Shown here piece after piece: positions 4,116 to 35,088 of a DNA stretch of 64,000 nucleotides. A program made the translations under genes and the position numbers. Source of the stretch: Mesostigma viride (Eukaryota; Streptophyta; Mesostigmatophyceae; Mesostigmatales; Mesostigmataceae); assembly GCA_009746045.1 (NCBI GenBank), contig RPFO01000667.1, positions 6,091,754 to 6,155,753 on the forward strand. Reading direction: 5' to 3'. Position 1 is the stretch's first letter; each line of letters opens with the position of its first letter. The notes below the pieces were generated by a model. It was given only the letters and a program-made list of their open reading frames with translations. It was not told the origin of the DNA and did not search any database.

Positions 4116-4731
4116 AGTTAACGTAAAGGATTTACGTTAGATGGATAGAGATTGTTACGCTCTTTCCAACGGCACCTTGAACGCCTCATTTGGTTAAGGA
4201 ACGTAAAAGTTATGACGTTTCCTAGGCTGTGCCGACAGTACCCGGCGCGCCACTGTGGGCGCGTACGAACACAGGATGTACAAGTGTCACTTTGATAGTC
4301 CGCAGGACGTTGACAGGACTTGTACAGGACTTGATGGTCAATTGATAGGTAGGCGTGCTGTAGCGCGCCAGGACCTATGAGACAATTGATGCTGAGCAGT
4401 GTACGGATAGGTCCACAGGACTAGCCGTATGGACAACTGATAGATCTGCGCGCCAAAGGCGTGCCAGAGTCTGTGTAATCAATTGATTGACAGTTCAGCT
4501 GTGACAGTGCAGCTGAATACTTGGACGCGTCCCTAGCAACCTATATGTGTGACTTGGTAGCACCGGGACGCTAGTTCTTGCGTGCATGTTCTCTTGGCAC
4601 TGCGACCCTGTCGTCTGTGCTGCGTGCAGTCTTGGAAGTGACGTGACTTACGTCTGTGTTCCTTATTCATAATAAAGGCGACATTTTCCTGCAAGAACCA
4701 TGGCGGAATTCTGCACAACCCTCTCACAACT
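4116..4731 (+). repeat. Element 1 left LTR
   Basis: 616 bp, from AGTTAACGTAAAGG to CTCTCACAACT, with AGTT/AACT as inverted ends instead of the usual TG/CA. The first ~25 bp carry a small palindrome (ACGTAAAGGATTTACGT). CAATTGAT words recur in both orientations and an AATAAAGG motif lies about 60 bp from the right end. An intact inverted copy is at 34475-35088. Confidence 0.85.
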
Positions 4732-4755
4732 CGTATTACTCGCCTTTTCACGATC

Positions 4756-5505
4756 ATGCCGAATTCCCAAGACTTCCGCATTCCTACCGATGAGGAAGTA
4801 GCTGCTCCGCCGGCAGATCCATTACCGGCTCCACGACCGCGTGAGCCGCAGCCGGTTGCTGCATCGTGGCAAGCTCTCGTTGACGAGGTCACGATTTCAC
4901 TCGACGAATTGCATCGTCGACAGCGAGCAGCGCTCCCGTTGCTGGGAGATTTTCCAGAAGACCCCCGCTTGCCGCCGCTGGTGCCGGCGATTCGTGGTCC
5001 ATTGGACCAAATCCGGTCGATTCTTTCGGCTTTTACGGTCCAGGTCCGCGGAGGCCTGCGTTCGGTGAACGAGGTCACCACCGCCATTGAGGAGGTGGAT
5101 AACGCCATTTCGTCGCTCACCGGGTATCAGCGAAATTTACAAAACTGGGCCTCGACGCGCACGGGGGGCGCGCCTGTGGTCTCAACAAATTTGTTTCAAG
5201 ACATCGCGTTGCTCTCGCTGCTCACTCGCGGCGTCCGCACTCGCGAGCGCCAGGTCCTCATAAACCTGGTGGCATTTCTCTCGGCTTTGCGTGAGTGGAT
5301 CCCAGCGGGCTGGGAGCTTCTTTCCATCTTTACGCATCCTCTTCGCCTTATCGCGCGTCGGCGCGTTGCGATTTTCATTCCGACGCAAAACCCGGCGAAT
5401 ACGCCGGTTTTGATCCACACCGGTGCGGGTCCGGCTATCACGCCAGACATGGAGGACGCCGAGTTTGCGTATGAGTACTGTGACTTTCGTGGCCTTGACT
5501 ATTAA
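4756..5505 (+). CDS. 249-residue LTR-adjacent ORF, element 1 left arm (unknown family)
   Basis: Starts MPNSQDFRIPTDEEV 24 bp after the LTR and ends EYCDFRGLDY. I do not recognise the family. Visible features: an acidic, Pro/Ala-rich N-terminus (residues 1-40), a helical middle rich in Leu/Arg/Glu (SLDELHRRQRAALPLLGDF; TTAIEEVDNAISSL), a central TRTGGAPVVSTNLFQDIALL, an RRR patch (IARRRVAIF) and a conserved aromatic tail. No zinc finger, protease or RT motif is seen. Its place before gag suggests an accessory or capsid-related product, which is only a guess. The copy at 33701-34450 differs at roughly one residue in ten while most base changes are silent, so the protein has been under selection. 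Confidence 0.8.
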   Translation: MPNSQDFRIPTDEEVAAPPADPLPAPRPREPQPVAASWQALVDEVTISLDELHRRQRAALPLLGDFPEDPRLPPLVPAIRGPLDQIRSILSAFTVQVRGGLRSVNEVTTAIEEVDNAISSLTGYQRNLQNWASTRTGGAPVVSTNLFQDIALLSLLTRGVRTRERQVLINLVAFLSALREWIPAGWELLSIFTHPLRLIARRRVAIFIPTQNPANTPVLIHTGAGPAITPDMEDAEFAYEYCDFRGLDY

Positions 5506-5637
5506 AACGTCGGCCATTTCTCCAGTGCTCGTCGGCATTTAGTCGACACTTCAACGGCATTTCGCGGGGGCGGCAGCGACACCGGCGCAGGCGGCAATAG
5601 TCGACAGTTTTGTAAATACTTTGTTTTGCTGCTTTGC

Positions 5638-6354
5638 TCAGGTGTTTCTAGGACAGCTTGTAGTGCACCATGGCAGACGGGCGCCGTAGATGATGACCTT
5701 GTAGGCCTTCATGGTGGAGTGAGGAGCACACATGACCTTGAGAGATCCACGTGTGGCCTTATCCAGCCCAAAGACCTTCAACCAGTTGCTCAGGGCTATA
5801 TTCTCTGCCACGTTGAAACCGTGGGCCCTGCCTTTCTCAACCATTTTGCAATAGTTAAGGAAATTCTGGATGAGATCCCCCTTGACCTCCCACCCTTGAT
5901 ACTTGTCTTGCCAATGGATGCCGACCTTCTTGCGCTGGTCTTCAAGCAGCTCCTTCAGCTCAGCTACATATACTGCCCAGGCCTTGTTGGCCTTTTTGCA
6001 TTCCTTGGTTAGGTCCTTGATCTGATCAGTGCACTTGCCAAACGTGCTGCTGCCTATCCAGATCTGATAGTAGTTGGTACCCCCGTACAAACTAGGAAAC
6101 CCTTCCAGCCCTTCTACAAACTCTTCAGCCTGCTTAGGCTTGGAGTCACATGTCACAGGTTGTAGCTGATTTACAATTAATAAGCCCTGAGTGGTAAGGT
6201 CAAATCCATGTACAGCTTGTGTATTATTAGTGTTGTGATGTACATTGGTAATTTCCCCGGTGACGCCCACGTCATCTACGTGAGCTGTCCCACTACCAGC
6301 ACCACCATTATTCCCACTGGCTGGGGCACCCTTGCTACGGCGCCCATCTGCCAT
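5638..6354 (-). pseudogene. Truncated gag fragment forming the loop of element 1
   Basis: Reads MADGRRSKGAPASGNNGG onward and matches codons 1 to ~222 of the element 2 gag (22715 on) with few changes. After AYKVII it runs into the inverted copy of the gag start, so the last ~16 codons are junction sequence. The zinc knuckle and all of pol are missing. The junction on the left arm lies right after the motif GACGGGCGCCGTAG. Confidence 0.85.
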
Positions 6355-6518
6355 GATGCACTACAAGCTGTCCTAGAAACACCTGAGCAAAGCAGCAAAA
6401 CAAAGTATGTACAAAACTGTCGACTATTGCCGCCTGCGCCGGTGTCGCTGCCGCCCCCGCGAAATGCCGTTGAAGTGTCGACTAAATGCCGACGAGCACT
6501 GGAGAAATGGCCGACGTT

Positions 6519-7268
6519 TTAATAGTCAAGGCCACGAAAGTCACAGTACTCATACGCAAACTCGGCGTCCTCCATGTCTGGCGTGATAGCCGGACCCGCA
6601 CCGGTGTGGATCAAAACCGGCGTATTCGCCGGGTTTTGCGTCGGAATGAAAATCGCAACGCGCCGACGCGCGATAAGGCGAAGAGGATGCGTAAAGATGG
6701 AAAGAAGCTCCCAGCCCGCTGGGATCCACTCGCGCAAAGCCGAGAGAAATGCCACCAGGTTTATGAGGACCTGGCGCTCGCGAGTGCGGACGCCGCGAGT
6801 GAGCAGCGAGAGCAACGCGATGTCTTGAAACAAATTTGTTGAGACCACAGGCGCGCCCCCCGTGCGCGTCGAGGCCCAGTTTTGTAAGTTTCGCTGATAC
6901 CCGGTGAGCGACGAAATGGCGTTATCCACCTCCTCAATGGCGGTGGTGACCACGTTCACCGAACGCAGGCCTCCGCGGACCTGGACCGTAAAAGCCGAAA
7001 GAATCGACCGGATTTGGTCCAATGGACCACGAATCGCCGGCACCAGCGGCGGCAGGCGGGGGTCTTCTGGAAAATCTCCCAGCAACGGGAGCGCTGCTCG
7101 CTGTCGACGATGCAATTCGTCGAGTGAAATCGTGACCTCGTCAACGAGAGCTTGCCACGATGCAGCAACCGGCTGCGGCTCACGCGGTCGTGGAGCCGGT
7201 AATGGATCTGCCGGCGGAGCAGCTACTTCCTCATCGGTAGGAATGCGGAAGTCTTGGGAATTCGGCAT
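6519..7268 (-). CDS. 249-residue LTR-adjacent ORF, element 1 right arm
   Basis: Inverted copy of 4756-5505, intact over all 249 codons. I see one residue difference (SVNVVTT against SVNEVTT). The start is taken at MPNSQ, to match the other copies, although an upstream in-frame Met exists in LTR sequence. Family unknown; see the left-arm copy for visible features. Confidence 0.8.
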   Translation of the reverse strand: MPNSQDFRIPTDEEVAAPPADPLPAPRPREPQPVAASWQALVDEVTISLDELHRRQRAALPLLGDFPEDPRLPPLVPAIRGPLDQIRSILSAFTVQVRGGLRSVNVVTTAIEEVDNAISSLTGYQRNLQNWASTRTGGAPVVSTNLFQDIALLSLLTRGVRTRERQVLINLVAFLSALREWIPAGWELLSIFTHPLRLIARRRVAIFIPTQNPANTPVLIHTGAGPAITPDMEDAEFAYEYCDFRGLDY

Positions 7269-7292
7269 GATCGTGAAAAGGCGAGTAATACG

Positions 7293-7653
7293 AGTTGTGA
7301 GAGGGTTGTGCAAAATTCCGCCATGGTTCTTGCAGGAAAATGTTGCCTTTATTAGGAATAAAGAACACAGACGTAAGTCACGTCACTTCCAAGACTGCAC
7401 GCAGCACAGGCGACAGGGTCGCAGTGCCAAGAGAACGTGCACGCAAGAACTAGCGTCCCGGTGCTACCAAGTCACACATGTAGGTTGCTAGGGACGCGTC
7501 CAAGTATTCAGCTGCACTGTCACAGCTGAACTCTCAATCAATTGATTACACAGACTCTGGCACGCCTTTGGCGCGCAGATCTATCAATTGTCCATACGGC
7601 TAGTCCTGTGGACCTATCCGTACACTGCTCAGCATCAATTGTCTCATAGGTCC
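7293..7653 (-). repeat. Element 1 inverted LTR, truncated
   Basis: Reverse complement of the LTR from AGTTGTGAGAG to GTCTCATAGGTCC. Here the sequence leaves the inverted LTR and continues as a direct LTR copy. Both possible paths share ATAGGTCC, an 8-bp microhomology. Confidence 0.85.
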
Positions 7654-7970
7654 ACAGGACTAGCCGTAGGGACAATTGATAAATCTGCGCGCCAAAGGCG
7701 TGCCAGAGTCTGTGTAATCAATTGATTGACAGTTCAGCTGTGACAGTGCAGCTGAATACTTGGACGCGTCCCTAGCAACCTACATGTGTGACTTGGTAGC
7801 ACCGGGACGCTAGTTCTTGCGTGCACGTTCTCTTGGCACTGCGACCCTGTCGTCTGTGCTGCGTGCAGTCTTGGAAGTGACGTGACTTACGTCTGTGTTC
7901 TTTATTCCTAATAAAGGCAACATTTTCCTGCAAGAACCATGGCGGAATTCTGCACAACCCTCTCACAACT
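7646..7970 (+). repeat. Element 1 right terminal LTR piece (direct orientation)
   Basis: 325 bp matching the right part of the left LTR, from ATAGGTCCACAGG to CTCTCACAACT. It is followed at once by the target duplication GTAGT (7971-7975), so it is the true integrated end. Confidence 0.85.
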
Positions 7971-7975
7971 GTAGT

Positions 7976-17377: not shown

Positions 17378-17499
17378 CTGGAAGAAGGGGGCGAGTGGCA
17401 GGGACAAAAGGCAGGATCCTTGAGAGAATGGCCATGTAACAATCAGAACTGATAGGGCACAGTTAGGCAAAATCAGGGAAAAAACAGGCTGAGTCAGGC

Positions 17500-21149: not shown

Positions 21150-21181
21150 AGTTGTGAGAGAGTTGCCCTGAATTCCGCCAT
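21150..21181 (-). repeat. Element 2 left terminal LTR remnant (32 bp, inverted relative to gag-pol)
   Basis: AGTTGTGAGAG... to CCGCCAT equals the start of the right LTR (34475 on). At 21181 the sequence flips into a direct LTR copy that begins near its own outer end (TTACGTTAGATGG). Confidence 0.8.
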
Positions 21182-21182
21182 C

Positions 21183-21780
21183 TTACGTTAGATGGATAGA
21201 GATTGTTACGCTCTTTCCAACGGCACCTTGAACACCTCATTTGGTTAAGGAACGTAAAAGTTATGACGTTTCCTAGGCTGTGCCGACAGTGCCCGGCGCG
21301 CCACTGTGGGCGCGTACGGACACAGGATGTACAAGTGTCACTTTGATAGTCCGCAGGACGTTGACAGGACTTGTACAGGACTTGATGGTCAATTGATAGG
21401 TAGGCGAGCTGTAGCGCGCCAGGACCTATGAGACAATTGATGCTGAGCAGTGTACGGATAGGTCCACAGGACTAGCCGTATGGACAATTGATAGATCTGC
21501 GCGCCAAAGGCGTGCCAGAGTCTGTGTAATCAATTGATTGATAGTTCAGCTGTGACAGTGCAGCTGAATACTTGGACGCGTCCCTAGCAAGCTATATGTG
21601 TGACTTGGTCGCACCGGGACGCTAGTTCTTGCGTGCACGTTCTCTTGGCACTGCGACCCTGTCGTCTGTGCTGCGTGCGGTCTTGGAAGTGACGTGACTT
21701 ACGTCTGTGTTCCTTATTCTTAATAAAGGCAACATTCCTGCAAGAACCATGGCGGAATTCAGGGCAACTCTCTCACAACT
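21183..21780 (+). repeat. Element 2 left LTR (direct with gag-pol), missing its outer ~18 bp
   Basis: Runs from TTACGTTAGATGG to CTCTCACAACT, very similar to 4134-4731. The palindromic tip AGTTAACGTAAAGG of the intact LTR is lost at the flip point. Confidence 0.83.
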
Positions 21781-21804: not shown

Positions 21805-22552
21805 ATGCCAAATTCTGAGGAATTCCGCATTCCCACTGATGAGGAGGTAGCTGCTCCGCCGGCTGATCCATTACCGGCTCCGCGTCCGCGCGAGCCAAGG
21901 CCGGCTGCGCCATCGTGGCAACAACTTCTTGACGAAGTCACGTTTCGCTGACGAACTCCATCGTCGTCAGCGAGCAGCACTCCCATTGCTCGGGGATTTT
22001 CCCGAGGACCCCCGTCTGCCGCAGCTGGTGCCGGCCATTCGAGGGCCGTTGGACCAAATCCGAAACATTCTTTCGCAATTTACGGTCCAGGTCCGTGGCG
22101 GCTTGCGGTCGGTGACCGAAGTCACCACCGCTATCGAGGAGGTGGACAACGCCATTTCCTCGCTGACCGGCTACCAGCGAAATTTGCAAAACTGGGCATC
22201 GACACGCACGGGGGGCGCGCCGGTGGTCACCACGAATTTATTTCAAGACCTCGCATTGCTGTCGCTGCTTACACGCGGCGTGCGCAGTCGAGAGCGACAG
22301 GTCCTCATCAACCTGGTCGCATTTCTCGCAGCCTTGCGCGAGTGGATTCCCGCAGGCTGGGAGTTGCTTTCAATTTTTACTCATCCTCTGCGCCTCGTCG
22401 CGCGTCGGCGAATTGCAATTTCCGAGCCGACGCAAAACCCGGCGAACACTCCGGTTTTGATTCGTACCGGTGCAGGTCCGGCGCACACGCCGGACATGGA
22501 GGATCCAGAGTACACCTATCAGTACTGTGATTTTCGCGGCCTCGACTACTGA
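21805..22552 (+). pseudogene. 249-residue LTR-adjacent ORF, element 2 left arm, frameshifted
   Basis: Starts MPNSEEFRIPTDEEV and reads in frame to DEVTFR, then stops at 21949-21951. Compared with the intact right-arm copy (33701-34450), single bases are missing in GTCACG(G)TTTCGCT(A)GACG, near 21940 and 21950. The remaining 200 residues are open in the next frame and end CDFRGLDY at 22552. One arm is thus broken while the other is intact. Confidence 0.83.
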
Positions 22553-22714: not shown

Positions 22715-23463
22715 ATGGCAGACGGGCGCCGTAGCAAAGGTGCCCCAGCCAGCGGGAATAATGGTGGTGCTGGTAGTGGGACAGCTCACGTAGATGACGT
22801 GGGTGTCACCGGGGAAATTACCAATGTACATCACAACCCTAATAATTCACAAGTTGTTCATGGATTTGACCTTACCACTCAGGGCTTATTAATTGTTAAT
22901 CAGCTGCAACCTGTCACATCAGACTCCAAGCCTAAGCAGGCTGAAGAGTTTGTAGAAGGGCTGGAAGGGTTTCCTAGTTTGTACGGGGGTACCAACTACT
23001 ATCAGATCTGGATAGGCAGCAGCACGTTTGGCAAGTGCACTGATCAGATCAAGGACCTAACCAGGGAATGCAAGAAGGCCAACAAGGCCTGGGCAGTATA
23101 TGTAGCTGAGCTGAAGGAGCTGCTTGAAGACCAGCGCAAGAAGGTCGGCATCCATTGGCAAGACAAGTATCAAGGGTGGGAGGTCAAGGGGGATCTCATC
23201 CAGAATTTCCTTAGCTATTGCAAAATGGTTGAGGAAGGCAGGGCCCACGGTTTCAACGTGGCAGACAACATAGCCCTGACCAACTGGTTGAAGGTCTCTG
23301 GGCTGGATAAGGCCACACGTGGCTCCTTAAAGGTCATGTGTGCCCCACACTCAACCCTCAAGGCCTACAAGGTCATAATCAAACAAGCACTCGAGGCAGA
23401 GGAGCTGTTTGAGGGTGGAGTACCAGCAGTGAAGGCTACCCAGGCAGGTGGGCGTACCCAGGG
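22715..23463 (+). CDS. Element 2 gag, N-terminal part
   Basis: Opens MADGRRSKGAPASGNNGG and runs about 249 codons in this frame. It has the copia-type UBN2-like gag look (FVEGLEGFPSLYGG; NFLSYCKMVEEGRAHGF; NWLKVSGLDKATRG; HSTLKAYKVIIKQAL). The leader from the 249-residue ORF is ~160 bp. At GGGGG (23461-23465) coding passes into the -1 frame, where the basic stretch RRGNHNKRKANHS leads into the zinc knuckle. Confidence 0.8.
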
Positions 23464-25347
23464 GGCTCCAAATCGTCTGAGGCTGACAGAAGCCAAGGAG
23501 GGCGTAGGGGCAACCACAACAAGCGGAAGGCCAATCATTCACCCGACCCTGACGGGAGGTCACACTCCAAGTCGGTGTTCAGGCGGGTGGGTGGTCAGCC
23601 CAAGCAGGGCAACGCATCTGACAACGGGGGCAGTGGCCAGGGCAAGTCAAAGATACAATGCTACCTGTGCAAGGGGTGGGGGCACATCAAGAAGGAGTGT
23701 CCCAGCTTCAAGAAGACCCAGGGCCAGGGCAGCAACAAGAATAACAACAAAAACAACAACAAGAACAACAACAAGTCCCAGGCAGGCCAGCCTTCAAAGG
23801 GCAGTCAACAAGAAGACAACAAGGAGCAGTGGCTGTCTGAGGCAACCCCTACACACCTTAATTCACCCAGGGGGGAGGCCAGGTGCTCCAATGCAGATTT
23901 TATATCTGGGCAACAAGAGGGTGATCTCCAGGTTCAGGGTGGCCCCAGGTCACCTGGAGAGGTACAGGTTCCTATGAAGACGTCCTTGACAGCTGGTGCA
24001 GCTGTAAGAATGTCTGACCCCATGCATCCTCGTGCTGGGCACGAGGGTGGACCTCTCATTTTGAGAGAAACCAATGTACAACCACAGAGGGGTGTGAAGG
24101 CCTCTGGTGGTATGCATGTGGTCCCTGCTGGCGGTCCAGGTGTTGGGCATGAGCAGGGTGACTCAGGCTCTGAGTCAGAACAGGATGGAAGTCAGCATGG
24201 TGATGCTGGACAACCTGACAGCACAGTCCTGACTGTGCCAGGGACTGCTTCCTCTGTGTACCAGGAGTTGGGTGCCCGAATCCACAACATGTTTGGGCAT
24301 GCCACTTCTCTGTCAAACAACTTTGCCTTCCGTATGGGCAGGGCACCCCTTCTCAAGGCGTGCCAGCAAGCTGCCTCACGGTGTAAGTGCCAGTTGTCCT
24401 CCAACAAGCCCAGGAAATCACATGCCAAAGCTCTACCTCAGAGCATTGGTGATCTGCAGTGTGATATCCAACACATCAGGGGCATGCAACTGTTGGTGTG
24501 CGTGGACAGGTACACAAAATACAAGGTGCTAGAGCATTTACCTTCTATGAAGAACAGGTACTTGCTGGCTGCCCTGCAGAATGTAAGAGCCAAGTTTCCT
24601 ACCACAAGGATCCAGGTGGACATGCAGTTTCAGCATCTCAAGGGTGATCCCACCCTTCCTGAGTTGCTGGTTACACCTAGGGAGGCTCATGGGCAGCAGG
24701 GTGCTATAGAGAGGGCAATCCAGGAGGTCAAGAAATTGATCATCTCTGAAGACTGGGTACCCTTGTCTGCACCTGCACTTGTCAGGAGTGCATGGCTGAG
24801 GAACGTGGAGCAGCAGCTGAACAGCAGGGTTAACTTCTACTATGATGGAGTTGCTGTCAGCCCAATGGGTCTATATCATGGCCTGTGCCCACCACATGTG
24901 CTGGAGGGCTGGAAACATGCTGCACATGTCACCTTTGCCAAGCTGAGGGAGAAGGACCGGGGTTGGAAGATGCTGGAGCCACAAGTGGGTCAGAAGGTCC
25001 TAGCTTGGAAGGAACCTAGCCTTTATGGCAAACGTGGTAGCTGGAGTCCTGGGGTGGTTACCCAGGTTGATGAAGCTAGCCACGCATGCTTGGTCAGCAT
25101 GGAGGACGAACCAAAGCATGTGCACCGGCTGAGTTGGTCATATGTCAAGCCTAACCTGATGAATGAGGGCAGTCAGGCACAAGGCTCACAGGATCTGCAG
25201 GATTTTCAGGTCCCAAGTGACATCACTGACGCAACGACCACATCTGTTGCAGGGGAATCTGTCAGCCCTGGCCAGGTTGCAGAGGTACTGTTGAACAGGC
25301 TGCAAGGTCAACAGCTGGGGAGTCAACTGTCAAGCCCAAGGCTCTAA
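23461..25347 (+). CDS. Element 2 gag zinc knuckle and integrase
   Basis: In the -1 frame relative to gag. The knuckle CYLCKGWGHIKKEC is a perfect CX2CX4HX4C. After a long polar linker comes an HHCC-like segment (HNMFGHAT ... CQQAASRCKC), then the DDE core: D in LQCDIQHI, VCVDRYTKY, D in RIQVDMQF 52 residues on, and E in GQQGAIERAI about 30 residues later. An SH3-like tail follows (VGQKVLAWKEPSLYGKRGSW ... RLSWSYVKP). Integrase joins cDNA to the target and fits the 5-bp target duplications. It lies upstream of the protease, which is unusual. Confidence 0.8.
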   Translation, partial: GGSKSSEADRSQGGRRGNHNKRKANHSPDPDGRSHSKSVFRRVGGQPKQGNASDNGGSGQGKSKIQCYLCKGWGHIKKECPSFKKTQGQGSNKNNNKNNNKNNNKSQAGQPSKGSQQEDNKEQWLSEATPTHLNSPRGEARCSNADFISGQQEGDLQVQGGPRSPGEVQVPMKTSLTAGAAVRMSDPMHPRAGHEGGPLILRETNVQPQRGVKASGGMHVVPAGGPGVGHEQGDSGSESEQDGSQHGDAGQPDSTVLTVPGTASSVYQELGARIHNMFGHATSLSNNFAFRMGRAPLLKACQQAASRCKCQLSSNKPRKSHAKALPQSIGDLQCDIQHIRGMQLLVCVDRYTKYKVLEHLPSMKNRYLLAALQNVRAKFPTTRIQVDMQFQHLKGDPTLPELLVTPREAHGQQGAIERAIQEVKKLIISEDWVPLSAPALVRSAWLRNVEQQLNSRVNFYYDGVAVSPMGLYHGLCPPHVLEGWKHAAHVTFAKLREKDRGWKMLEPQVGQKVLAWKEPSLYGKRGSWSPGVVTQVDEASHACLVSMEDEPKHVHRLSWSYVKPNLMNEGSQAQGSQDLQDFQVPSDITDATTTSVAGESVSPGQVAEVLLNRLQGQQLGSQLSSPRL

Positions 25348-26290
25348 CCAAGCCCAGGGGGACAAGTTTGGCTGGATTGATTGGGGCTCTACAAAGAGCC
25401 AAGAAGCAGCCCAAGGTAGCCAAGCTCAGGTGGCATGGCAATCTGGGGCTGGACACTGCCTTAGAGGTAGACACTAATTCTCAGGTTTCCATCATTGGGA
25501 CCAGAGCTGCAGCAGGGTACAGCATGACTGAACCCAGCTATCAGTTTGTGTCTGACTTCAGTGGCGGGGTACACGTGAAGGTACTGGGTGAGGTATCTAT
25601 TCCTATCCTTGGACAGGACACTGCATTTTGTGTCTTGGAGGGCTATCAGGGACCTGCTCTTCTGGGGCAGAATTTCCTATGCCAGGATGGGGTAGTGATC
25701 ACGTCCTCTCTCCTGACTAAGGAAGGGGCTGGTCAGGTCCCACTGATTAATTTCAGGACCACTCACCTATCACGTGCAGTAACCAGGACGGTTAAGCGTG
25801 TGCAAGTGTGCCAGGGGCAGGAGCCCTTGGTTGATGACCTCATATTGCCAGCTGCTAGTCATCCAAGCAGTTTGGGCATTGGTCCTCACTCACTTGCTGG
25901 ACACAGCCCTATCAACTACCAAGGCCTGGTGAAGCTCATGTCCTCTCCCATTATGTGTCCCCAGGTCACACTGGGTCTGATTAAATCTGGGGAGGACTGG
26001 ATCTCCAAGAAATGCGTGGAACCTGTCAATGACCTGCCTCCTGCACGACGTCTACTCAAGCTCAAGTTTGTCATCAAGATGAAGGAGGTGGACGGGGTCA
26101 AGGTACCACATGTCAGGCCAGTGCTGAATGAGTTCAAGGGTACTGGTGAGTGCACTGCTGAGGAGTTGTATACCCCTGGCATGCTGCATGACACTTGGAG
26201 GCTGCTGCTGTGTGTATTTCTAGGCCTTCTCAACAAGGGCTTGGACTATGGCTCAGTGGTGGTAGACTTCAAGAGGGCATTTCTGGAGGG
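25320..26290 (+). CDS. Element 2 retropepsin and N-terminal reverse transcriptase
   Basis: A further -1 frame step, probably near GGGG at 25317. The protease has LEVDTNSQVSIIG (DTN for the usual DTG/DSG) and a C-terminal GPALLGQNFLCQDGVVI, the retropepsin hallmark. The RT follows: KFVIKMKEVDGVKVPHVRPV, then VVVDFKRAFLEG, which is the copia motif VDxKxAFLxG. DTN at the active site may mean loss of activity or a variant. The frame ends its homology at GGGG (26287-26290). Confidence 0.75.
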
Positions 26291-26705
26291 GATGCAGATG
26301 TGGCACAGGAAAAGTGGGAGGGCAAGACGCCTTTCTATGTCAGGGTGCCTGCTGTATGGAAAAGGGACATTCACACTGAGTTCCTTAAAATCCTCAAGGG
26401 CCTGGAGGGCCTGAGGTCAAGTCCAATAATCTGGAGGGAGACTCTCAACCGTTTCCTGAAGGAGCATTGCAACTTGAAGGTCTCTCCTGTAGACCCCTGT
26501 CTGTTTCTGGGGCAATGGGAAGGCCTACCAGTGTATGCTTCGCTGCACGGGGATGACCTACATCTGATAGCTCCCACGTCGTGGCTTAAGGAGCTGATCT
26601 CCATCATTAAGTCCAAGTTTCCTCTGGGTAGGGAGCAATGGCAGGTGGAGAATGAGCCTCTGCTGTTTGTGGGCATGGAGGCCACACTGGTGAAGAAGGG
26701 GGGGA
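26290..26705 (+). CDS. Element 2 reverse transcriptase, C-terminal part
   Basis: Continues in the next -1 frame: DADVAQEKWEGKTPFYVRVP, SPIIWRETLNRFLKEHCN, DPCLFLGQW and VYASLHGDDLHLIA. The last holds the catalytic DD (copia usually YVDD; here HGDD). FPLGREQWQVENEPLLFVGM corresponds to the fingerprint following RT. It breaks at a six-G run near 26697-26702. Confidence 0.78.
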
Positions 26706-27456
26706 GTGGCGTATGCTGCTGGTGGGGGGCAATGATTATCAAGAGACCCTCATTAGCAAGCTTCCTCCAGTCATCACACAGGCACTGTGTCCCATGGTGA
26801 GGGGCATGGTTGCTTGGGTGGCAGGCATTTCCAGGCCAGACCTTATGGTCATAGCCAGGTTGCCTGATGACATGCTGATGGAGCTAGGGTCTGCCAAGGT
26901 GGCTGATCAGGTCAGGGCTTCATCTGGCATTCTGTTGTCTGCAGTGGATTTATCACAACCCATTTGCATGGAGCTGTATGTGGATAGCTCAATGGACAGC
27001 AGGCAGGTCTCCAAGGTCAGGGGCAGGGCTGCAGGGCTCTTTGTGCTCAGACAGGAAGGCCTGGGGAGTTTGGTGAGCTGGTTTAGTCGCCTGCACAAAC
27101 GGGTGGCTGTCAGCAGTGATGTGGCAGAATGCAGGGCTATTTGTGAAGGCATTCACACAAGCCTTTATCTGAAGGAGTTGCTTCATCAGATGACTTCTAA
27201 CACTCCTTGGCCACTTCAGGTTACCACTCTTCTAAAAACAGACTCCATGGGGATGGTGCAGTTTGTGCACAGGCAGATGGCCAGAAGTAGGGACTTGGAT
27301 TATCTCCTTCTTAAGGAATTGTCCTCCTTGGCCAATATTGAGCATATCCCTGGGGTTGACAATCCTGCTGATGCTTTGACCAAGCTAGTGCAGAAGGCAG
27401 CAGTGCAATACAAGGTTCTTCAGTCTCTGATGGACCCATCTCAGCAAGCTGTCTAA
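26700..27456 (+). CDS. Element 2 connection and RNase H
   Basis: Final -1 frame. EWRMLLVGGNDYQETL links to the RT, then MVAWVAGISRPDLM, and the copia-type RNase H: LYVDSSMDSRQVSKVRGRA (first Asp), SSDVAECRAICEGI (Glu), LLKTDSMGMVQFVHRQMA (Asp) and IEHIPGVDNPADALTKLV. It ends TAA after QQAV. The downstream ~560 bp up to the DIRS insert are non-coding. Confidence 0.82.
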
Positions 27457-28017
27457 GCTGGTGCCTGGTTATAGGGCATTGGAGAGCAGATTGTGTGGTA
27501 GTGTCAGCATTGTGACTGGCATAATACCTGTATTTTAGTCTGTACTAAGGCTCATGGACCATGTTACACTCACTCTGATTTTATTCAGGATACAGCCAGG
27601 TTTTGGCTGGGGTTCATGCTGTTGACTACACAAGGTTGACAGGTCCATTACAGACCATGTATTCTATTTTAAAAGAAATGTATATTTGTACATACTTCTA
27701 ACAATGGTCTGGGAACCTTCATACTGGGGTTTATAGGGCGGGGTTCGATTCCCTGGTATTATGTTTCTACAAGCTGGCCTGTTCAGGTGTTTGCCTGTTC
27801 AGACTTCCCTAGTTCCCCAGGGCAGGATTTAATTGTTGCCTATGTGTTTCATTTTGTCATTTGTTTGCTGTGGCAGTTTACCATCTGGCAAGTAGACGGG
27901 CGCCGTAAGACGGGCGCCAATAGACACCTGTTGAGAGAATGACAGGCAAACTATTGTAATACGCCTTACTTTGTCAAGTGGTATTTTAATTGTGATAGAT
28001 TTATTGTACTTATATTG
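27457..28017. other. Element 2 3' region, left of the nested DIRS
   Basis: Non-coding. Two copies of GACGGGCGCCGTA/CAA lie at about 27895-27920; the same motif marks the gag start and the inversion joint of element 1. A B-box-like GGTTCGATTCC is at about 27738. The remainder of this region continues at 33441-33692 beyond the DIRS element. Confidence 0.6.
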
Positions 28018-28077
28018 ATTCTATTAACCGTGGAACTCCAGGGAACACTTATTGCTTGGCAAAGGCTAGCCTTACCC
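28018..28077 (-). repeat. DIRS split repeat B2
   Basis: 60 bp, from ATTCTATTAACCGTGGAACT to CTAGCCTTACCC. It matches both ends of B1 but lacks the 75-78 bp interior of B1. Confidence 0.85.
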
Positions 28078-28103
28078 CCAAACACGCAGGGAGGGTGGGC
28101 GGG

Positions 28104-28534
28104 AAAAGAAAAGAGGCCGACCTTAGCTAGGTGGGTTTGTTTTTGTCCTTTTTTGCGTGTCATGCGGCCTTGGCCCGGACGGCATTTTTTCGCCACGCAA
28201 ATGTTGCGTCTGAACAAATGACGCAATGTGGCGTTCTAATTGCCGGCAGCTTACGTAAGGCTGCCGGGGCTATTAGGTCACATATTGCGTGAGAGAAAGA
28301 ATCTAGATCTAGTTAATCACTACGCCATGAGCCAAGAAACCTAGACAGTGGCAGGTTTATATCTCAACGTAGCTCCTGCCACCTGGCCAAGAAAAAACTG
28401 GCCAAAGCTTTGGCCACGACTGATCCGGATCAGGCCGCACCGGCCTCAAAAGGTTTGTCACGTGAACCCAATAACCTAGCTATAGCGGCTACCCTTCCAT
28501 CTCACTATAAAGAAACTATGTTCAGAGAACCACG
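28104..28534 (-). repeat. DIRS split repeat A2
   Basis: 431 bp, AAAAGAAAAGAGGCCGACC to TCAGAGAACCACG, identical by eye to A1 at 33010-33440. It contains the palindrome TGCCGGCAGCTTACGTAAGG with CTGCCGG. Confidence 0.9.
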
Positions 28535-28672
28535 ATTCTATTAACCGTGGAACTCCAGGGTAACCAGACTCTTTATTAAAACAATGAGTGGAGCACATAC
28601 AAAAGGCAGGCCACATCCCGGCCGCCGATGCTCATGGGAACACTTATTGCTTGGCAAAGGCTAGCCTTACCC
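28535..28672 (-). repeat. DIRS split repeat B1 and transcript 3' end
   Basis: Both ends equal B2; the extra interior carries, in element sense, TTTTAATAAAGAGTCTGG, a likely polyadenylation signal for ORF2. The A2/B1 joint at 28534/28535 (CCACG|ATTCT) represents the circle junction sequence. Confidence 0.8.
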
Positions 28673-28744
28673 TTATATCCCTCCCTGGCGATCCATGCCA
28701 GGGGCAAAGAACCTAGCATAATGACAGAGAAATGAACAACCAAA

Positions 28745-31700
28745 TTAGGTGGAGGGCAATTTCAAAATAGCCCGCCAGGCCCGAGGGGGGCAGGCGGCCA
28801 TGGCCCGAAGAATAACCTCAGGCAGCTGCACCTCCAAACTGCGGTGCAAGCCCACATAATGGGCAACCGTGGAGCTGCTAAGCCAGCGCCCCCGGCCCTG
28901 GATGTCCCCCATGCTGCGACCCGCGAGGAAATCGTGAGTGGCACCTCCATGCCGCAGCCCGTGAATGGTGAAAATCTGGGCGACCCCCAAGGCCTGACTC
29001 GCAGCCTGCCAAATGCGCCGGAATTGCGGGTAGGTGAAAGGGAACACGGCCTCCCAAGCGTGCTTACCCGCGATGCAGTGACGGAGGATGGTTTCAGACA
29101 TCACATCTTCTACCACCACTGACTGAGTCTTGCCCTTAGAGGTCTTGGTAGACCTCAGCAGTAGGGCGCCCCGTTGAGCCGGCCCAAGCCGAACGTCAGG
29201 CTGGAGGCGCACATGGCCAACACGGAGGTTCAGCGCCTCCGAGATTCGCAGGTAATGGCGGAACACGATGACAACCAGCAGGCCCGCAAGGCGCTGACCT
29301 TGCATGACCATCGTGCTGGCAAGTGCAAACGCCGCCTCCCATGGAATGGGAGGAGGGGCACGGGGGGGCACAAGTGTTTTCCACCCAGCGAGGACGCCAC
29401 GGGCCAAGTCCCACCGCTTCACCATACCGGGATAATAAAGTTGCAACCCCATCAAGGCATTGACACACACTTGGCGGCTGTACCCCCGAAAATGAGCCCA
29501 GGCGACATACGCACAAAATGTCTCCTCAAGGGTGTCAGCTCGTGACGATGACCCGTCCGCCCGCCCACCAGCCTCCCACCAAGTCAAGAGGGAATCAAGA
29601 CCACGACGGTAGGCCAGCAAAGTAGCCGGCTTTACTTTCCCCTCTAGCAATGGAAGGTAGCTAACAGGTGCAGGGGGCCCCGGGTTAGGATGGATGCCTT
29701 CCGCGGTCAGGTCGCGCACCCAGCCTGCCAAGAAAGTCGCCATGGATTGGCCGCGAGAAACGCCATCGGCTGGTTGAAGTGCACTCGGCGTCCACACCCA
29801 CTGGGAACGACTCCCCGTGGCGAGGGTCAGCGCGCACAAGCGGCGGCACTGCTTGTTGAGCTTGTGGGATGAGGACCGCCCCTTAGCCAAGCAGCCCAAC
29901 GCCGCGGTGGAGTCCACCAACCTCACCACCCGCTTGCCTCGGTTTGCCAAGCTGCGCGCACTCCTCTCCACGCCCTTCACTGCAGCCCGCACCTCCTTCT
30001 CGTTGATGTGCATCCCCGGATCCCGCCAACGACTCCGGACCCCAACCCGCCATTGCTGGCTAGTGATTGCTTGTTGCGCCCGCGCGCTCAGTGGCCTAGG
30101 GCCAGCGTAGGCCACCTCACTTGGTATGAGCAAAGTCGGGTACCCCCGCACCTCTCGTGCCCTCGCCAGCTCCGTCACATCGCCCGGCTCCATGGTTGCG
30201 TACACGACACCTTGCCCGTAGGTGGACGCGTCAGATGCAACCACCTCACGGGCCAAAGGTGCGCTTCGGTCAACCCTTAGCATGGGAGCCAAGGCCAGGG
30301 CACACTCTAACTCCTCCCGCACCCCGGCCCACAGCACCCAGGATCGCTGCCCCCACCCTTGCAGGCTGATGAATTTGAAACATTGCTGCCAAATGGACAA
30401 GCAGCTGCGGCTTAACATCTGCAGCCACAACCACCGCCCCAAGACGGCAGCCAGCCCCTCGGCCGTAGCTCGGCCTCGAGTGAGTATAGCCTGCGTGTGG
30501 GCGATCACAAGGTTGAGCTGCTTGACCGTTGGTTCCAGCACGCCGTTCCGTCGGTGCACCACCCCTAGGGCTTCTAGCTCGTCCCCTTCCAGGCTCGCCA
30601 TCTTAGTCTTCTCCTTAGACGGCACAAGGTTGTTAGGGAGGTAGCCTTCCTCAATAGCGCGCGTGATGAGCTGGTTCACCGCCTCGCAGGTCCGCCCGTT
30701 GCTGGCCACCAAGTCATCAATAGTGATGGACAGCATGGGGGCAGGGGGGTTTTCCAGGTCAATCTGAAGCTCCCCGGCGCGCTCCTCCTTGTACTCGATG
30801 GCCAAGCGCAGTGGCTGGCCACACTCGTCGCGCACCAAGGTGAGCTCACCTGCGCTTGAGAGGTAGTTGACCTGGCGCCTCGGATCCAGGGCACCGGTCA
30901 TGTAGAGCACCATCTCATGGATGGCCTCCCCCAGCGCCACCGCATGGGAATGTCCCATGGCCAGCACCTTGAGCACGGGCCACACCTTCCGCCTGGGCCC
31001 TGCCAGACCTACGCTAGTCGACCACACACTAGGAAGCCCTTGGTAGTCCCACCACCACTCGGGCACCTCGATGGAATAGTAGTATGACACGAGGTCGCTC
31101 TTGGCGCAGTAGCACCAGCCTTTGATGTAGACCTCCACGAGGATGCCCAGGTGGGGTAGCAGGATCTTGGGGGGGTCCACCCACAGCAGGTTGCCCAGCT
31201 TCCTGTTGACGATGAACCGAAGCTCACCCACCCCCTTGGCCACTCCAAAGCAGCCATCCACCCACTTGGGCCGCCTCTCCCGGAACGCCACCATGCCCAC
31301 GCCCGCTGCCCGGCTCATGAGCTTGCCCCATTCAGCCATGGAGCATCCCCGGCTGGGCTTGGGCACATTCCAATACTTTGCGCTCGCCACGACCGCTGGC
31401 TTGATGCAGTTCTCTTCGCTGGCATATATCTCCCGCCAGCTCGGCCGCATAGCCAACAGGTCGAGCAGCCGTGCCTTCCCCGCCACCTCCGCCTTTGGTA
31501 GACTCACCGCGTCCGCGCGCAGTTGTTCATACTTATTCTGCTTCCCATATATTGCATCAGCACCTTCTTGCTCCTGGCCTGTCGCAACGCCCCCTACGCG
31601 GCGACTGTGCCAGGTGCAGTGCCTCTTGACCCTCGCAAGGGCCTCCTCCCTCCCCTTAGAGCACGCCCCTCTAGGGTTAGGAGGAGGGTCTTGCCCCCCT

Positions 31701-31999
31701 CCCCACAGCCAATTAAGCCAACGCACTACCTTGCATTGCAGTGTGTACTCGCGGTGGCGGCGCGTGGCACGCTGTCGCCGGCGTGCCGATCTCACCCTGC
31801 CCCACGCGGTGTACGCTGGCCTAAGTGGGTATGGCAGCGGGAAAAGGGAGCGGTCCCGCTGGGATTCTATTTCCCTACTTGTTGAGCCTTGCTGAGCTTG
31901 TCCAAGAGGATGGCAGTTTGGAGAGCTGCCTTGACAGCCGGGGTGGCTGACAGTGCAGCCTCCTCCCCCAATGGCAGGAGGTGGCTGGCCACCTTCCAC
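28745..31999 (-). CDS. DIRS ORF2: reverse transcriptase, RNase H and tyrosine recombinase
   Basis: An uninterrupted frame of up to 1,084 codons. RT: VDPPKILLPHLGILVEVYI, CAKSDLVSYYYSIEVP and MLSITIDDLVASNG, where DD is catalytic. RNase H: VVASDASTYGQGVVYA, INEKEVRAAV and VVRLVDSTAALGCL. Tyrosine recombinase at the C-terminus: Arg in FRHYLRISEALNLRV, Lys in STKTSKGKTQ, HGLRHGGATHDF (HxxR), and GRWLSSSTVAHYVGLH with the nucleophilic Tyr. All tetrad residues are present, so the copy looks competent. The N-terminal ~180 codons overlap ORF1 and may not all be used. Confidence 0.9.
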   Translation of the reverse strand: MEGGQPPPAIGGGGCTVSHPGCQGSSPNCHPLGQAQQGSTSREIESQRDRSLFPLPYPLRPAYTAWGRVRSARRRQRATRRHREYTLQCKVVRWLNWLWGGGQDPPPNPRGACSKGREEALARVKRHCTWHSRRVGGVATGQEQEGADAIYGKQNKYEQLRADAVSLPKAEVAGKARLLDLLAMRPSWREIYASEENCIKPAVVASAKYWNVPKPSRGCSMAEWGKLMSRAAGVGMVAFRERRPKWVDGCFGVAKGVGELRFIVNRKLGNLLWVDPPKILLPHLGILVEVYIKGWCYCAKSDLVSYYYSIEVPEWWWDYQGLPSVWSTSVGLAGPRRKVWPVLKVLAMGHSHAVALGEAIHEMVLYMTGALDPRRQVNYLSSAGELTLVRDECGQPLRLAIEYKEERAGELQIDLENPPAPMLSITIDDLVASNGRTCEAVNQLITRAIEEGYLPNNLVPSKEKTKMASLEGDELEALGVVHRRNGVLEPTVKQLNLVIAHTQAILTRGRATAEGLAAVLGRWLWLQMLSRSCLSIWQQCFKFISLQGWGQRSWVLWAGVREELECALALAPMLRVDRSAPLAREVVASDASTYGQGVVYATMEPGDVTELARAREVRGYPTLLIPSEVAYAGPRPLSARAQQAITSQQWRVGVRSRWRDPGMHINEKEVRAAVKGVERSARSLANRGKRVVRLVDSTAALGCLAKGRSSSHKLNKQCRRLCALTLATGSRSQWVWTPSALQPADGVSRGQSMATFLAGWVRDLTAEGIHPNPGPPAPVSYLPLLEGKVKPATLLAYRRGLDSLLTWWEAGGRADGSSSRADTLEETFCAYVAWAHFRGYSRQVCVNALMGLQLYYPGMVKRWDLARGVLAGWKTLVPPRAPPPIPWEAAFALASTMVMQGQRLAGLLVVIVFRHYLRISEALNLRVGHVRLQPDVRLGPAQRGALLLRSTKTSKGKTQSVVVEDVMSETILRHCIAGKHAWEAVFPFTYPQFRRIWQAASQALGVAQIFTIHGLRHGGATHDFLAGRSMGDIQGRGRWLSSSTVAHYVGLHRSLEVQLPEVILRAMAACPPRAWRAILKLPST

Positions 32000-32921
32000 C
32001 CCCCCCTCCTTGCCCTTCCACCTGCAGCAAGGCCGCCACCACCCTCATTAGGTACTCCATGCCCACAAGCTCCCCGGCTGCTGAGCCCAGCTCCTTGAGA
32101 AGGGTGTCCATGGCCAATGCAATGTTCATGACAATTTTCCTGTTCTCCATGTTCCGCCAATTTCCAGGCTTTACCGTCATGACCCACGACCGGATTCCCA
32201 TCCCATTGTCGCTGGCGTCCTCCAACACCCCCGGCAGCACCCGCTCCGAAACCCGATATTTCACGCTCTTGGCTCGGCTTGGCAGCGCCACCCCTTTCGA
32301 GGCCTTGAAGTGGCTTCCCGCCCCCTCCATTCCTCCCAGCGCTGCCTTCAAACCTTGCATGAATTTCTCGGCTGCGACCTCCCCCTCCTCGTCCTCCTCG
32401 TCGTCCTGATTTTCGGTTTCCGGAGGTGCCCCAACGAATGTCGCCAACCTCGCCCTCATTTCCTTTCCGACAGCCCCCCCACCTGCCGAAACCTTGGCCG
32501 CGCCTTTCGGCTTGGCCATTTTTCGCTGCGCAGGTGTCGTTGGTGGCAGCGCCTGATCCTCCTCCTCGTCCGCCGCGAGATCTGCCACGGCCAGCAGTTT
32601 TGCCACCAACGTTCCGTTTGGGTCACGTGCGTCCAACACGTCGCCAACATCAACGTGATCGGCCAGCAACTGCACGACAGACTTCAGCTGGCTCGAGCTC
32701 CACGAGCTGGCGTCCGTCACCCAGTCCTCGGCACCGAAGACCTGCTCGACTGCCCCCACCGCCTCTGCGGGGCTGATGCACTTGGCGAGCAGAGTGGCGA
32801 GCTGCTTCTTTTTGGCGCTGAAGGCGACTGGCGCGTGACTGGCGGCAGCAGCCCGCGGTGTGGGCGTCCCGTCCTCCCCGCGCGCTGCCTGCCCTCCTGT
32901 AGCTTTGCGCCCCTTCGGCAT
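31875..32921 (-). CDS. DIRS ORF1: Gag-like protein
   Basis: Opens MPKGRKATGGQAARGEDG; no zinc knuckle. It has an acidic stretch (ENQDDEEDEEGEVAAEKF), a helical core (LKELGSAAGELVGMEYLMRV) and WRNMENRKIVMNIALAM. Near 32004-32012 an eight-base homopolymer separates two frames. The -1 frame gives a sensible amphipathic C-terminus (EEAALSATPAVKAALQTAIL ... LSKAQQVGK) that the annotated frame lacks, so one base is probably missing there. Role by position: Gag-like structural protein of DIRS elements. Confidence 0.78.
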   Translation of the reverse strand: MPKGRKATGGQAARGEDGTPTPRAAAASHAPVAFSAKKKQLATLLAKCISPAEAVGAVEQVFGAEDWVTDASSWSSSQLKSVVQLLADHVDVGDVLDARDPNGTLVAKLLAVADLAADEEEDQALPPTTPAQRKMAKPKGAAKVSAGGGAVGKEMRARLATFVGAPPETENQDDEEDEEGEVAAEKFMQGLKAALGGMEGAGSHFKASKGVALPSRAKSVKYRVSERVLPGVLEDASDNGMGIRSWVMTVKPGNWRNMENRKIVMNIALAMDTLLKELGSAAGELVGMEYLMRVVAALLQVEGQGGGGGRWPATSCHWGRRLHCQPPRLSRQLSKLPSSWTSSARLNK

Positions 32922-33009
32922 TGCTGCTCAGGGCCAAAAATGGCTCCGACAGTACAGGTTCGTCAAACCAGAGGTTCGTTTCCCCTGGCTTGCTGTCGCC
33001 GCCCTCGTG

Positions 33010-33440
33010 AAAAGAAAAGAGGCCGACCTTAGCTAGGTGGGTTTGTTTTTGTCCTTTTTTGCGTGTCATGCGGCCTTGGCCCGGACGGCATTTTTTCGCC
33101 ACGCAAATGTTGCGTCTGAACAAATGACGCAATGTGGCGTTCTAATTGCCGGCAGCTTACGTAAGGCTGCCGGGGCTATTAGGTCACATATTGCGTGAGA
33201 GAAAGAATCTAGATCTAGTTAATCACTACGCCATGAGCCAAGAAACCTAGACAGTGGCAGGTTTATATCTCAACGTAGCTCCTGCCACCTGGCCAAGAAA
33301 AAACTGGCCAAAGCTTTGGCCACGACTGATCCGGATCAGGCCGCACCGGCCTCAAAAGGTTTGTCACGTGAACCCAATAACCTAGCTATAGCGGCTACCC
33401 TTCCATCTCACTATAAAGAAACTATGTTCAGAGAACCACG
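33010..33440 (-). repeat. DIRS split repeat A1 (5' end of the element)
   Basis: 431 bp, identical by eye to A2. Its outer end is CAGAGAACCACG next to target sequence AATATGTACTGG. Confidence 0.9.
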
Positions 33441-33692
33441 AATATGTACTGGGTTTTATGGGATTAGTATCTGGGATTAATGTAACTCACCGCCAGAAGG
33501 TCATTGTACTGGAGGCTCTACCGAGGTGATGGGATTAATTCCTGGAGAAGACCTCATAGAATTAACCTGTATGTATTTAATTGTGTGTGTTCCTAATATC
33601 TGGTGGTACTCTGTAATGCCACTTCCATAGGTTTTTATCCATTTCTCATGGAATGGTTTTCCCTGTGGCAGATCTGTTTCTTTTCCAGTTCT
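33441..33692. other. Element 2 3' region, right of the nested DIRS
   Basis: About 250 bp, AT-rich, with several GGGATTA words. No coding signal. It ends where the inverted arm begins (CGATTTATTCAGTAGTCGAG). Confidence 0.6.
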
Positions 33693-33700
33693 CGATTTAT

Positions 33701-34450
33701 TCAGTAGTCGAGGCCGCGAAAATCACAGTACTGATAGGTGTACTCTGGATCCTCCATGTCCGGCGTGTGAGCCGGACCTGCACCGGTATGAATCAAAACC
33801 GGTGTGTTCGCCGGGTTTTGCGTCGGCTCGGAAATTGCAATTCGCCGACGCGCGACGAGGCGCAGAGGATGAGTAAAAATTGAAAGCAACTCCCAGCCTG
33901 CGGGAATCCACTCGCGCAAGGCTGCGAGAAATGCGACCAGGTTGATGAGGACCTGTCGCTCTCGACTGCGCACGCCGCGTGTAAGCAGCGATAGCAATGC
34001 GAGGTCTTGAAATAAATTCGTGGTGACCACCGGCGCGCCCCCCGTGCGTGTCGATGCCCAGTTTTGCAAATTTCGCTGGTAGCCGGTCAGCGAGGAAATG
34101 GCGTTGTCCACCTCCTCGATAGCGGTGGTGACTTCGGTCACCGACCGCAAGCCGCCACGGACCTGGACCGTAAATTGCGAAAGAATGTTTCGGATTTGGT
34201 CCAACGGCCCTCGAATGGCCGGCACCAGCTGCGGCAGACGGGGGTCCTCAGGAAAATCCCCGAGCAATGGGAGTGCTGCTCGCTGACGACGATGGAGTTC
34301 GTCTAGCGAAACCGTGACTTCGTCAAGAAGTTGTTGCCACGATGGCGCAGCCGGCCTTGGCTCGCGCGGACGCGTAGCCGGTAATGGATCAGCCGGCGGA
34401 GCAGCTACCTCCTCATCAGTGGGAATGCGGAATTCCTCAGAATTTGGCAT
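33701..34450 (-). CDS. 249-residue LTR-adjacent ORF, element 2 right arm (intact)
   Basis: Opens MPNSEEFRIPTDEEVAAPP and ends CDFRGLDY, the same length as the element 1 copies. Unrecognised family. Compared with element 1, about one residue in ten differs, mostly conservatively (SAF/SQF, RTRER/RSRER), while many third positions differ, e.g. in the PAPRPREP segment. The block TGYQRNLQNWASTRTGG is invariant in all four copies. It is oriented against gag-pol of its own element but with the LTR at 34475-35088. Confidence 0.82.
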   Translation of the reverse strand: MPNSEEFRIPTDEEVAAPPADPLPATRPREPRPAAPSWQQLLDEVTVSLDELHRRQRAALPLLGDFPEDPRLPQLVPAIRGPLDQIRNILSQFTVQVRGGLRSVTEVTTAIEEVDNAISSLTGYQRNLQNWASTRTGGAPVVTTNLFQDLALLSLLTRGVRSRERQVLINLVAFLAALREWIPAGWELLSIFTHPLRLVARRRIAISEPTQNPANTPVLIHTGAGPAHTPDMEDPEYTYQYCDFRGLDY

Positions 34451-34474
34451 GTTCGTGAAAAGGCGAGTAATACG

Positions 34475-35088
34475 AGTTGTGAGAGAGTTGCCCTGAATTC
34501 CGCCATGGTTCTTGCAGGAATGTTGCCTTTATTAAGAATAAGGAACACAGACGTAAGTCACGTCACTTCCAAGACTGCACGCAGCACAGACGACAGGGTC
34601 GCAGTGCCAAGAGAACGTGCACGCAAGAACTGGCGTCCCGGTGCGACCAAGTCACACATATAGCTTGCTAGGGACGCGTCCAAGTATTCAGCTGCACTGT
34701 CACAGCTGAACTATCAATCAATTGATTACACAGACTCTGGCACGCCTTTGGCGCGCAGATCTATCGATTGTCCATACGGCTAGTCCTGTGGACCTATCCG
34801 TACACTGCTCAGCATCAATTGTCTCATAGGTCCTGGCGCGCTACAGCTTGCCTACCTATCAATTGACCATCAAGTCCTGTACAAGTCCTGTTAACGTCCT
34901 GCGGACTATCAAAGTGACACTTGTACATCCTGTGTCCGTACGCGCCCACAGTGGCGCGCCGGGCACTGTCGGCACAGCCTAGGAAACGTCATAACTTTTA
35001 CGTTCCTTAACCAAATGAGGCGTTCAAGGTGCCGTTGGAAAGAGCGTAACAATCTCTATCCATCTAACGTAAATCCTTTACGTTAACT
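34475..35088 (-). repeat. Element 2 right LTR (intact, inverted relative to gag-pol)
   Basis: 614 bp from AGTTGTGAGAG to TTTACGTTAACT, the reverse complement of the 4116-4731 type. Followed by the target duplication GCTGT (35089-35093). Confidence 0.87.

Follow-up and report, generated by a model that had tools for sequence, protein, structure and literature searches.

Most long terminal repeat (LTR) retroelements borrow a transfer RNA (tRNA) as primer for reverse transcription, and self-primed members known so far rely on their own RNA's 5′ end. Defective proviruses, such as those of HIV-1, may show normal integration together with internal inversion and deletion, which is ascribed to strand-transfer errors. 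Here we describe two LTR insertions, E1 (4116-7970) and E2 (21150-35088), lying within 31 kb of each other in a 64,000-nt stretch of Mesostigma viride DNA (contig RPFO01000667.1, positions 6,091,754 to 6,155,753; hereafter the window), both of which have the form of large palindromes. With a probability of about 0.65, we consider them to be defective members of a Ty1/copia-type LTR retrotransposon family that is otherwise ordinary, and part of a wider class of body-inverted copies; this family would be self-primed from its 3′ region. Self-priming near the 3′ end of the RNA is suggested because the other body-inverted copies share a fixed junction; judged from sequence, the minus strand probably starts from the element's own 3′-region RNA and not from a host tRNA. 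Unlike the proviruses mentioned above, one fixed primer-site junction recurs here at 18 places, and one of the products has multiplied.

In Tf1, according to the parts of PMC7175516 and PMC10085805 that were compared, the primer is the first 11 nt of the element's own RNA, at its 5′ end. The present family resembles these Tf1/sushi (Ty3/gypsy) elements in that its own RNA can pair with the primer-binding site and is proposed as the minus-strand primer, but here the complement is a 3′-region sequence, separated from the 3′ LTR by about 440 nt in the family of E1 and E2 (family A) and by about 310 nt in a second family (family B). The TAR lineage of Ty1/copia (Houba, Osr-1) is likewise a Ty1/copia group thought to self-prime, as predicted in the compared parts of PMC6317226, although those parts mention neither a primer location nor inverted read-through copies. 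In the copia elements Osser and Bryco, the same parts of PMC6317226 describe a primer site matching half of tRNA-Met; there, as here, the primer-binding site lacks the usual TGG start, whereas our narrow test yielded no tRNA match for the present family. For dictyostelid Skipper, too, no tRNA primer has been recognised, and a novel form of self-priming was suggested (PMC5006619), and fungal GalEa is without a known primer (PMC5445492); a complement in the element's own 3′ region goes unmentioned in the parts of these two papers compared with our data. Among the titles and abstract beginnings listed for our search terms in one open library, we found no description of a 3′-region self-primer or of recurrent body-inverted LTR elements.

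All genome-wide counts given here refer to the 440-Mb host genome containing the window. An ordinary full copy of the family (L018, L019, L020) measures about 7.85 kb and is arranged as LTR, leader, an open reading frame of 249 codons (ORF249), untranslated region (UTR), gag, pol, 3′ region, polypurine tract and LTR. Among the LTR matches, one full-length LTR stood next to the tail of an inverted one and led to a third insertion, E3 (L030, C1469:2060000-2068800), which has direct LTRs and the target duplication ACAGT, with its body inverted from 3′-region position 507 back to LTR position 459. At the left junction of E3, the LTR end is followed by CGTATTAC and then by 3′-region sequence in reverse complement. 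A normal leader opens with the same 8 nt, and GTAATACG in the 3′ region is their reverse complement. The junction of E3 is a fixed one, present at 18 places in all, E3 included and E1 and E2 not, and the inverted segment that follows it ranges from 15 nt up to almost the entire body. A 28-mer spanning the junction is exact at 16 places and has 2 mismatches at 2; the other 579 of its 597 matches need 3 mismatches, and of these the 82 listed have the sequence of ordinary 3′ regions. An 18-mer is exact at 26 places, namely the same 18 and 8 others, which include L055 and L056 (running to pol after 13 nt) and a hairpin (L052, C1524:2127630-2128080) composed of an LTR, a 13-nt primer site and the same LTR end inverted, and thus centred on the primer site; the other five are among the diverged copies treated below.

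Before the junction, the LTR is complete or nearly so at nine of the 18 places (C54, C335, C114, C777, C1469, C1646 and three in C2156) and partial at four (the first C1641 copy, C1679, the second C1641 copy with 19 nt of U5, and C1984 with 14 nt of U5); for the remaining five (C800, C1132, C1605, C1847 and C1579) 7-14 LTR letters were read. The second switch points number ten. C114 is back in its own leader after some 15 nt, by way of a 6-nt microhomology, and is flanked by the duplication GCTGG. At four places (C54, C335, C1646 and C1132) 37 nt are copied before the return at pol2 861, and this form has multiplied, since the three that were read at both ends, C54, C335 and C1646, carry the different duplications CCGTC, CTAGG and GATAC. 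The return lies in gag at C1847 (166) and C1605 (517), at 3′-region 508 in E3, and at 3′-region 464 in C1679 after copying into pol1. C800 folds back at pol2 1824, and its inverted and sense 3′ regions differ at 0 of 359 nt. In C2156 the return is at 3′-region 485 in a tandem of three short units; the tandem units of this locus (L039, C2156:1087300-1092050) are 1245 bp long and consist of an LTR and a short foldback internal part, with LTRs shared head-to-tail. The first C1641 copy, in which 4.6 kb of the middle part are unread, is inverted to the ORF249 start, passes to the last 19 nt of U5 and runs through the primer site into the inverted 3′ region once more. C1579 goes from the inverted 3′ region to an inverted gag start. 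Outside these ten, C777, read without its far end, is inverted into gag, and C1984 (about 4.3 kb unread) has at the site GTAATACG and then directly 14 nt of antisense U5, with the appearance of an ordinary copy carrying an insert there.

The second line of evidence is the complementarity itself. GTAATACG complements the primer-binding site CGTATTAC exactly and occurs once per ordinary copy (4/4 copies), in the 3′ region and not in the LTR; priming of the Tf1 type by the RNA 5′ end was rejected on this ground. When the leaders of diverged copies were compared with the family-A 3′ region read in reverse complement, the matches extended to 14 nt (L049, L053), 13 nt (L050, L051, L054), 12 nt (L021) and 11 nt (L058). 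An ORF249-like start follows the leader in all of these except L049, which continues into sequence matching none of the queries. In 2000 shuffles of the L018 3′ region, with matches anchored at the first base after the LTR, lengths of 11-14 nt were each reached in 0/2000, and lengths of 8, 9 and 10 nt in 24/2000, 8/2000 and 4/2000, respectively.

Moreover, the complement changes together with the primer site between the two families compared. Family B, which is related and lies nested in L016, has the primer site CGTATTATTGT, and its LTR has no significant similarity to that of family A (best E 0.48). It was predicted beforehand that its 3′ region must hold ATAATACG; the one such region retrieved (L064) holds ACAATAATACG, an exact 11-nt complement of its own primer site, a match reached in 1/2000 shuffles, the cross-family match being 7 nt. 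Clear similarity between the 3′ regions of the two families is confined to 26 nt containing a GGGCGCC hairpin (E 6e-4, against 0.1 for the next-best match); from the end of this hairpin to that of the site the distance is 45 nt in A and 39 nt in B. In E2 this hairpin lies at 27898..27918 (+), upstream of the proposed self-primer site CTATTGTAATACG at 27951..27963 (+), the last 8 nt of which complement the primer-binding site. Ribozyme cleavage at the site was rejected, as the 6 Rfam matches, in three loci (L064, L035, L015), are below the curated cut-offs and none is at the site.

From these observations we infer the following course of cleavage, priming and strand switching. The genomic RNA would be cut after GTAATACG in the 3′ region, and the cut end would pair with CGTATTAC after the 5′ LTR, so that minus-strand DNA would start in U5, joined to sense RNA. 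At the end of U5, the plus strand would normally stop after about 8-13 nt of primer and then transfer; failing to stop, it would copy the primer RNA into antisense 3′ region, pol and gag, until it switched. Since copying through a self-primer yields exactly the join observed, the fixed junction would be explained, and with a primer made by cutting the element's own RNA inside the 3′ region, the minus strand would be attached to the entire body in sense orientation. Thus, at the same probability of roughly two in three, an internal cut leaving a 3′ self-primer beside the GGGCGCC hairpin would prime this copia lineage, and read-through of the long primer would have repeatedly given rise to body-inverted and palindromic elements, some of them multiplying non-autonomously.

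Several points weigh against this. The subfamily to which E1 and E2 belong matches over 8 nt only, a length reached in 24 of the 2000 shuffles, and other leader complements of 8-9 nt occur by chance in the same copies. Most diverged leaders were compared with the 3′ region of L018 and not with their own, and family B was read in one copy. Extended pairing between leader and 3′ region is unexceptional, its ranks being 65/706, 333/707, 344/706, 74/704 and 45/546 windows. Read-through junctions predicted for family B were met at six inexact places, and a longer pattern gave no match; these places are weak support at best. The tRNA search was narrow, consisting of one pattern with one T-arm form. 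Lastly, the link between E1 or E2 and self-priming is one that we infer, because both lack the fixed junction: all four LTR/leader junctions in the window run on into a normal leader.

Concerning the two insertions of the window, the borders given in the first-pass annotation were reproduced by repeat finding and self-BLAST, together with the intact 5-bp target duplications, the intact outer LTR ends AGTT..AACT, the outermost direct LTR pair with inverted arms of about 1.4 kb and 99% identity, and the terminal direct LTR pieces of 325 bp (E1) and 32 bp (E2). The arms of E1 (4371-5689 / 6335-7653) extend over 1319 bp with 98.8% identity and those of E2 (21183-22560 / 33693-35072) over 1380 bp with 99.0%; inverted arms this long and this similar are not chance. 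The inner borders indeed differ, the E1 forward arm reaching the gag start and the E2 right arm lacking it. Self-priming, which that annotation had offered as one possible origin, may hold in another sense, for minus-strand priming from the 3′ region with read-through of the primer, as the 18 junctions and the complementarity suggest; the evidence favours this over inversion by simple fold-back.

E1, flanked by GTAGT (4111..4115 and 7971-7975), begins with a complete outer 5′ LTR of 616 bp (4116..4731, +), whose full-length matches elsewhere in the genome are 98-100% identical. It is followed on the same strand by the primer-binding site CGTATTAC (4732..4739), which is kept in the leaders read, by ORF249 (4756..5505) and by the UTR with the first ~20 nt of gag (5506..5689), up to an inner junction with 1-nt microhomology at 5689. 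On the minus strand follow the 5′ part of gag (5690..6354), seen from its reading frames and self-BLAST, a second ORF249 (6519..7268), 99.5% identical to the forward copy and, like it, open, and a partial LTR (7293..7653, LTR positions 256-616). This is joined through the 8-nt microhomology ATAGGTCC (7646-7653) to the terminal direct LTR piece (7646..7970, +, LTR positions 292-616). The inner LTR and the terminal piece share three variants absent from the 5′ LTR (4544, 4662, 4669), which would fit two sibling templates as well as conversion between adjacent pieces.

E2, flanked by GCTGT (21145..21149 and 35089-35093), begins with the 32-bp terminal U5 piece (21150..21181, −) and an extra C at 21182, a left junction found whole at its own place only (40 of 48 candidates scored). 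On the plus strand follow the inner LTR without its first 16 bp (21183..21780), a frameshifted ORF249 (21805..22552) whose longest open stretch is 207 aa, gag-pol broken into several frames (22715..27456), with zinc knuckle, integrase and RVT_2 by weak Pfam matches and RNase H by eye, and, beyond the self-primer site, the remaining 3′ region (33442..33693), which ends before the polypurine tract. After an extra A near 33693, an intact ORF249 (33701..34450) and the complete outer LTR (34475..35088) are inverted. Within the 3′ region sits a nested retroelement of about 5.4 kb (28018..33441, −), recognised by self-BLAST and Pfam, with split direct repeats and a tyrosine-recombinase (Phage_integrase) domain, which we take to be PAT/Ngaro-like; it is outside the present finding, and since it is a later insertion, E2 proper measures about 8.5 kb.

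Both insertions lack the polypurine tract and a second U3, the 19-nt tract of the family having no exact match in the window and its first 12 nt none between 4000 and 36000; they look like dead ends. Derivation of E1 from E2 by deletion was rejected, as the E1 forward arm holds 5′-UTR and a gag start absent from the E2 right arm, and an inversion between the two was rejected by reasoning, as the duplications match within each element and the arm sequences are element-specific. E1 and E2 are 83% identical in ORF249, against about 97% in the LTR and about 95% in gag, hence they represent two subfamilies with mosaic histories. ORF249 (249 aa, between LTR and gag, 4756-5505 and relatives) has no Pfam match, and its far greater divergence between subfamilies suggests mosaic evolution or diversifying change. 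Another copy (L029, C1491:2211500-2217500) has the LTR tail and ORF249 duplicated directly, ending about 14 nt past the ORF249 stop, close to where the E2 arm ends, and may mark a second switching hot spot.

E1 and E2 themselves probably arose by template switching during reverse transcription, or else by later repair. In the former case, the reverse transcriptase would have abandoned its template, used the opposite strand to copy a portion of the element (LTR, ORF249, gag or more) and then made a second switch; with one U3 and one U5 end preserved, the product could have been inserted normally by integrase. E1 and E2 would fit such opposite-strand switching after a correct start, perhaps favoured by tied sense and antisense strands. 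In the latter case, which concerns E1 and E2 only and which we hold to be possible but doubtful, a break in an ordinary copy would have been repaired after integration by microhomology-driven template switching onto its own other arm. In its favour, the junctions show short or no microhomology and single added bases, the arms are copied from the element itself, and a local event could explain two cases within 31 kb. Yet both events must have preserved termini and duplications and reached the same overall layout, and the inverted copies of the family elsewhere begin at the primer-site junction, which points to reverse transcription. The three variants shared by the inner LTR and terminal piece of E1 also speak against repair, though conversion between adjacent pieces could produce them.

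For the fixed junction, a tRNA or half-tRNA could be the true primer and GTAATACG a decoy, to which the 8-nt primer-site copy on plus-strand strong-stop DNA mis-anneals in sense RNA and is extended. This would yield the same first junction, a chance 8-nt match (24/2000 shuffles) is not very rare, and half-tRNA primers are known in algal copia (Osser, in the compared parts of PMC6317226). We nevertheless think it unlikely, as it predicts neither the 11-14 nt matches in diverged leaders nor the change in family B, and in the narrow search made, GTAATACG with one form of tRNA T-arm occurs at 2 places, neither of which is a tRNA by ARAGORN or Rfam. As a separate observation, L062 and L063 (C335:5103720-5103900 and C334:5680-5860) belong to a near-identical repeat with two T-arm-like GGTTTGATTCC/GGTTCGATTCC boxes, likewise without an ARAGORN or Rfam tRNA call.

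Descent of all 18 places from a single founder with a fixed junction, with later deletions, is improbable. As such descent would have it, the second switch point is the same at four places and a single tandem array accounts for three, but several LTR types precede the junction, the inverted 3′ regions carry the alleles of different copies (C777 is like L020, C1641 like L010, and C1984 and C1579 are far apart), and the two halves of C800 are identical. An assembly artefact is very improbable: palindromes are error-prone and were judged here from assembled sequence, but exact 5-bp outer duplications flank E1, E2, E3, C54, C335, C1646 and C114, the arms have diverged, and the same form recurs at different sites.

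The census of ordinary copies bears on how common the inverted form is. A 30-mer of the LTR 3′ end has 1133 places at ≤3 mismatches, of which 100 were listed and 96 analysed, leaving out the four closest to E1 (three in E1 and one on C998). Among these 96, same-strand neighbours within 20 kb number 45, at 7.1-7.3 kb in 27 cases, and opposite-strand neighbours 2. The E1/E2-type 31-mer across LTR end and leader has 66 places, among which head-to-head neighbours within 60 kb are confined to the arms of E1 and of E2 themselves. For the main subfamily, the corresponding 31-mer has 331 places at ≤2 mismatches, 100 exact ones being listed; no pair converges within 60 kb among the 67 compared, which lie on contigs with more than one match or near other matches, each of the remaining 33 being the sole one listed on its contig. 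The family shows the direct LTRs, the 5-bp duplication and the integrase before RVT_2 of Ty1/copia, with Pfam order zf-CCHC, rve and RVT_2 (E 0.0044, 0.015 and 0.0013, all below the curated cut-offs). Relatives were absent by tblastn from viral contigs (two queries) and from plasmids (one query). The first-pass proposal that inverted DNA copies are a regular substrate for integration is supported in altered form, by 18 other places with the fixed junction, several with their own duplications. Its other proposal, that the family normally exists and replicates in the inverted layout, can practically be dismissed: both copies in the window (2/2) show it, but ordinary direct-LTR copies prevail in the listed parts of the census, and E1 and E2 lack a polypurine tract and a second U3.

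If self-priming from the 3′ region is true, it would add a third primer arrangement, independent of host tRNA, to the borrowed tRNA and the RNA 5′ end. Retrotransposons that are palindromic or have an inverted body, and that are readily written off as misassembly or as debris of nested insertions, would gain a concrete source, and the inverted copies would be fossils marking the primer end, making the mechanism readable from genomes. Self-priming of this kind might also account for elements in which no primer can be recognised, a matter raised for Skipper and fungal GalEa in the compared parts of PMC5006619 and PMC5445492.

Two minor features of the window can be added. A putative retropepsin-like stretch, seen by eye and without a Pfam match, lies at 25368-25800 in E2, after the integrase region and before RVT_2, a position unlike the usual copia order. 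Between E1 and E2, dense minisatellite arrays with units of 36, 43/44, 58 and 60 bp occupy 14592-15403 and 17437-19285.

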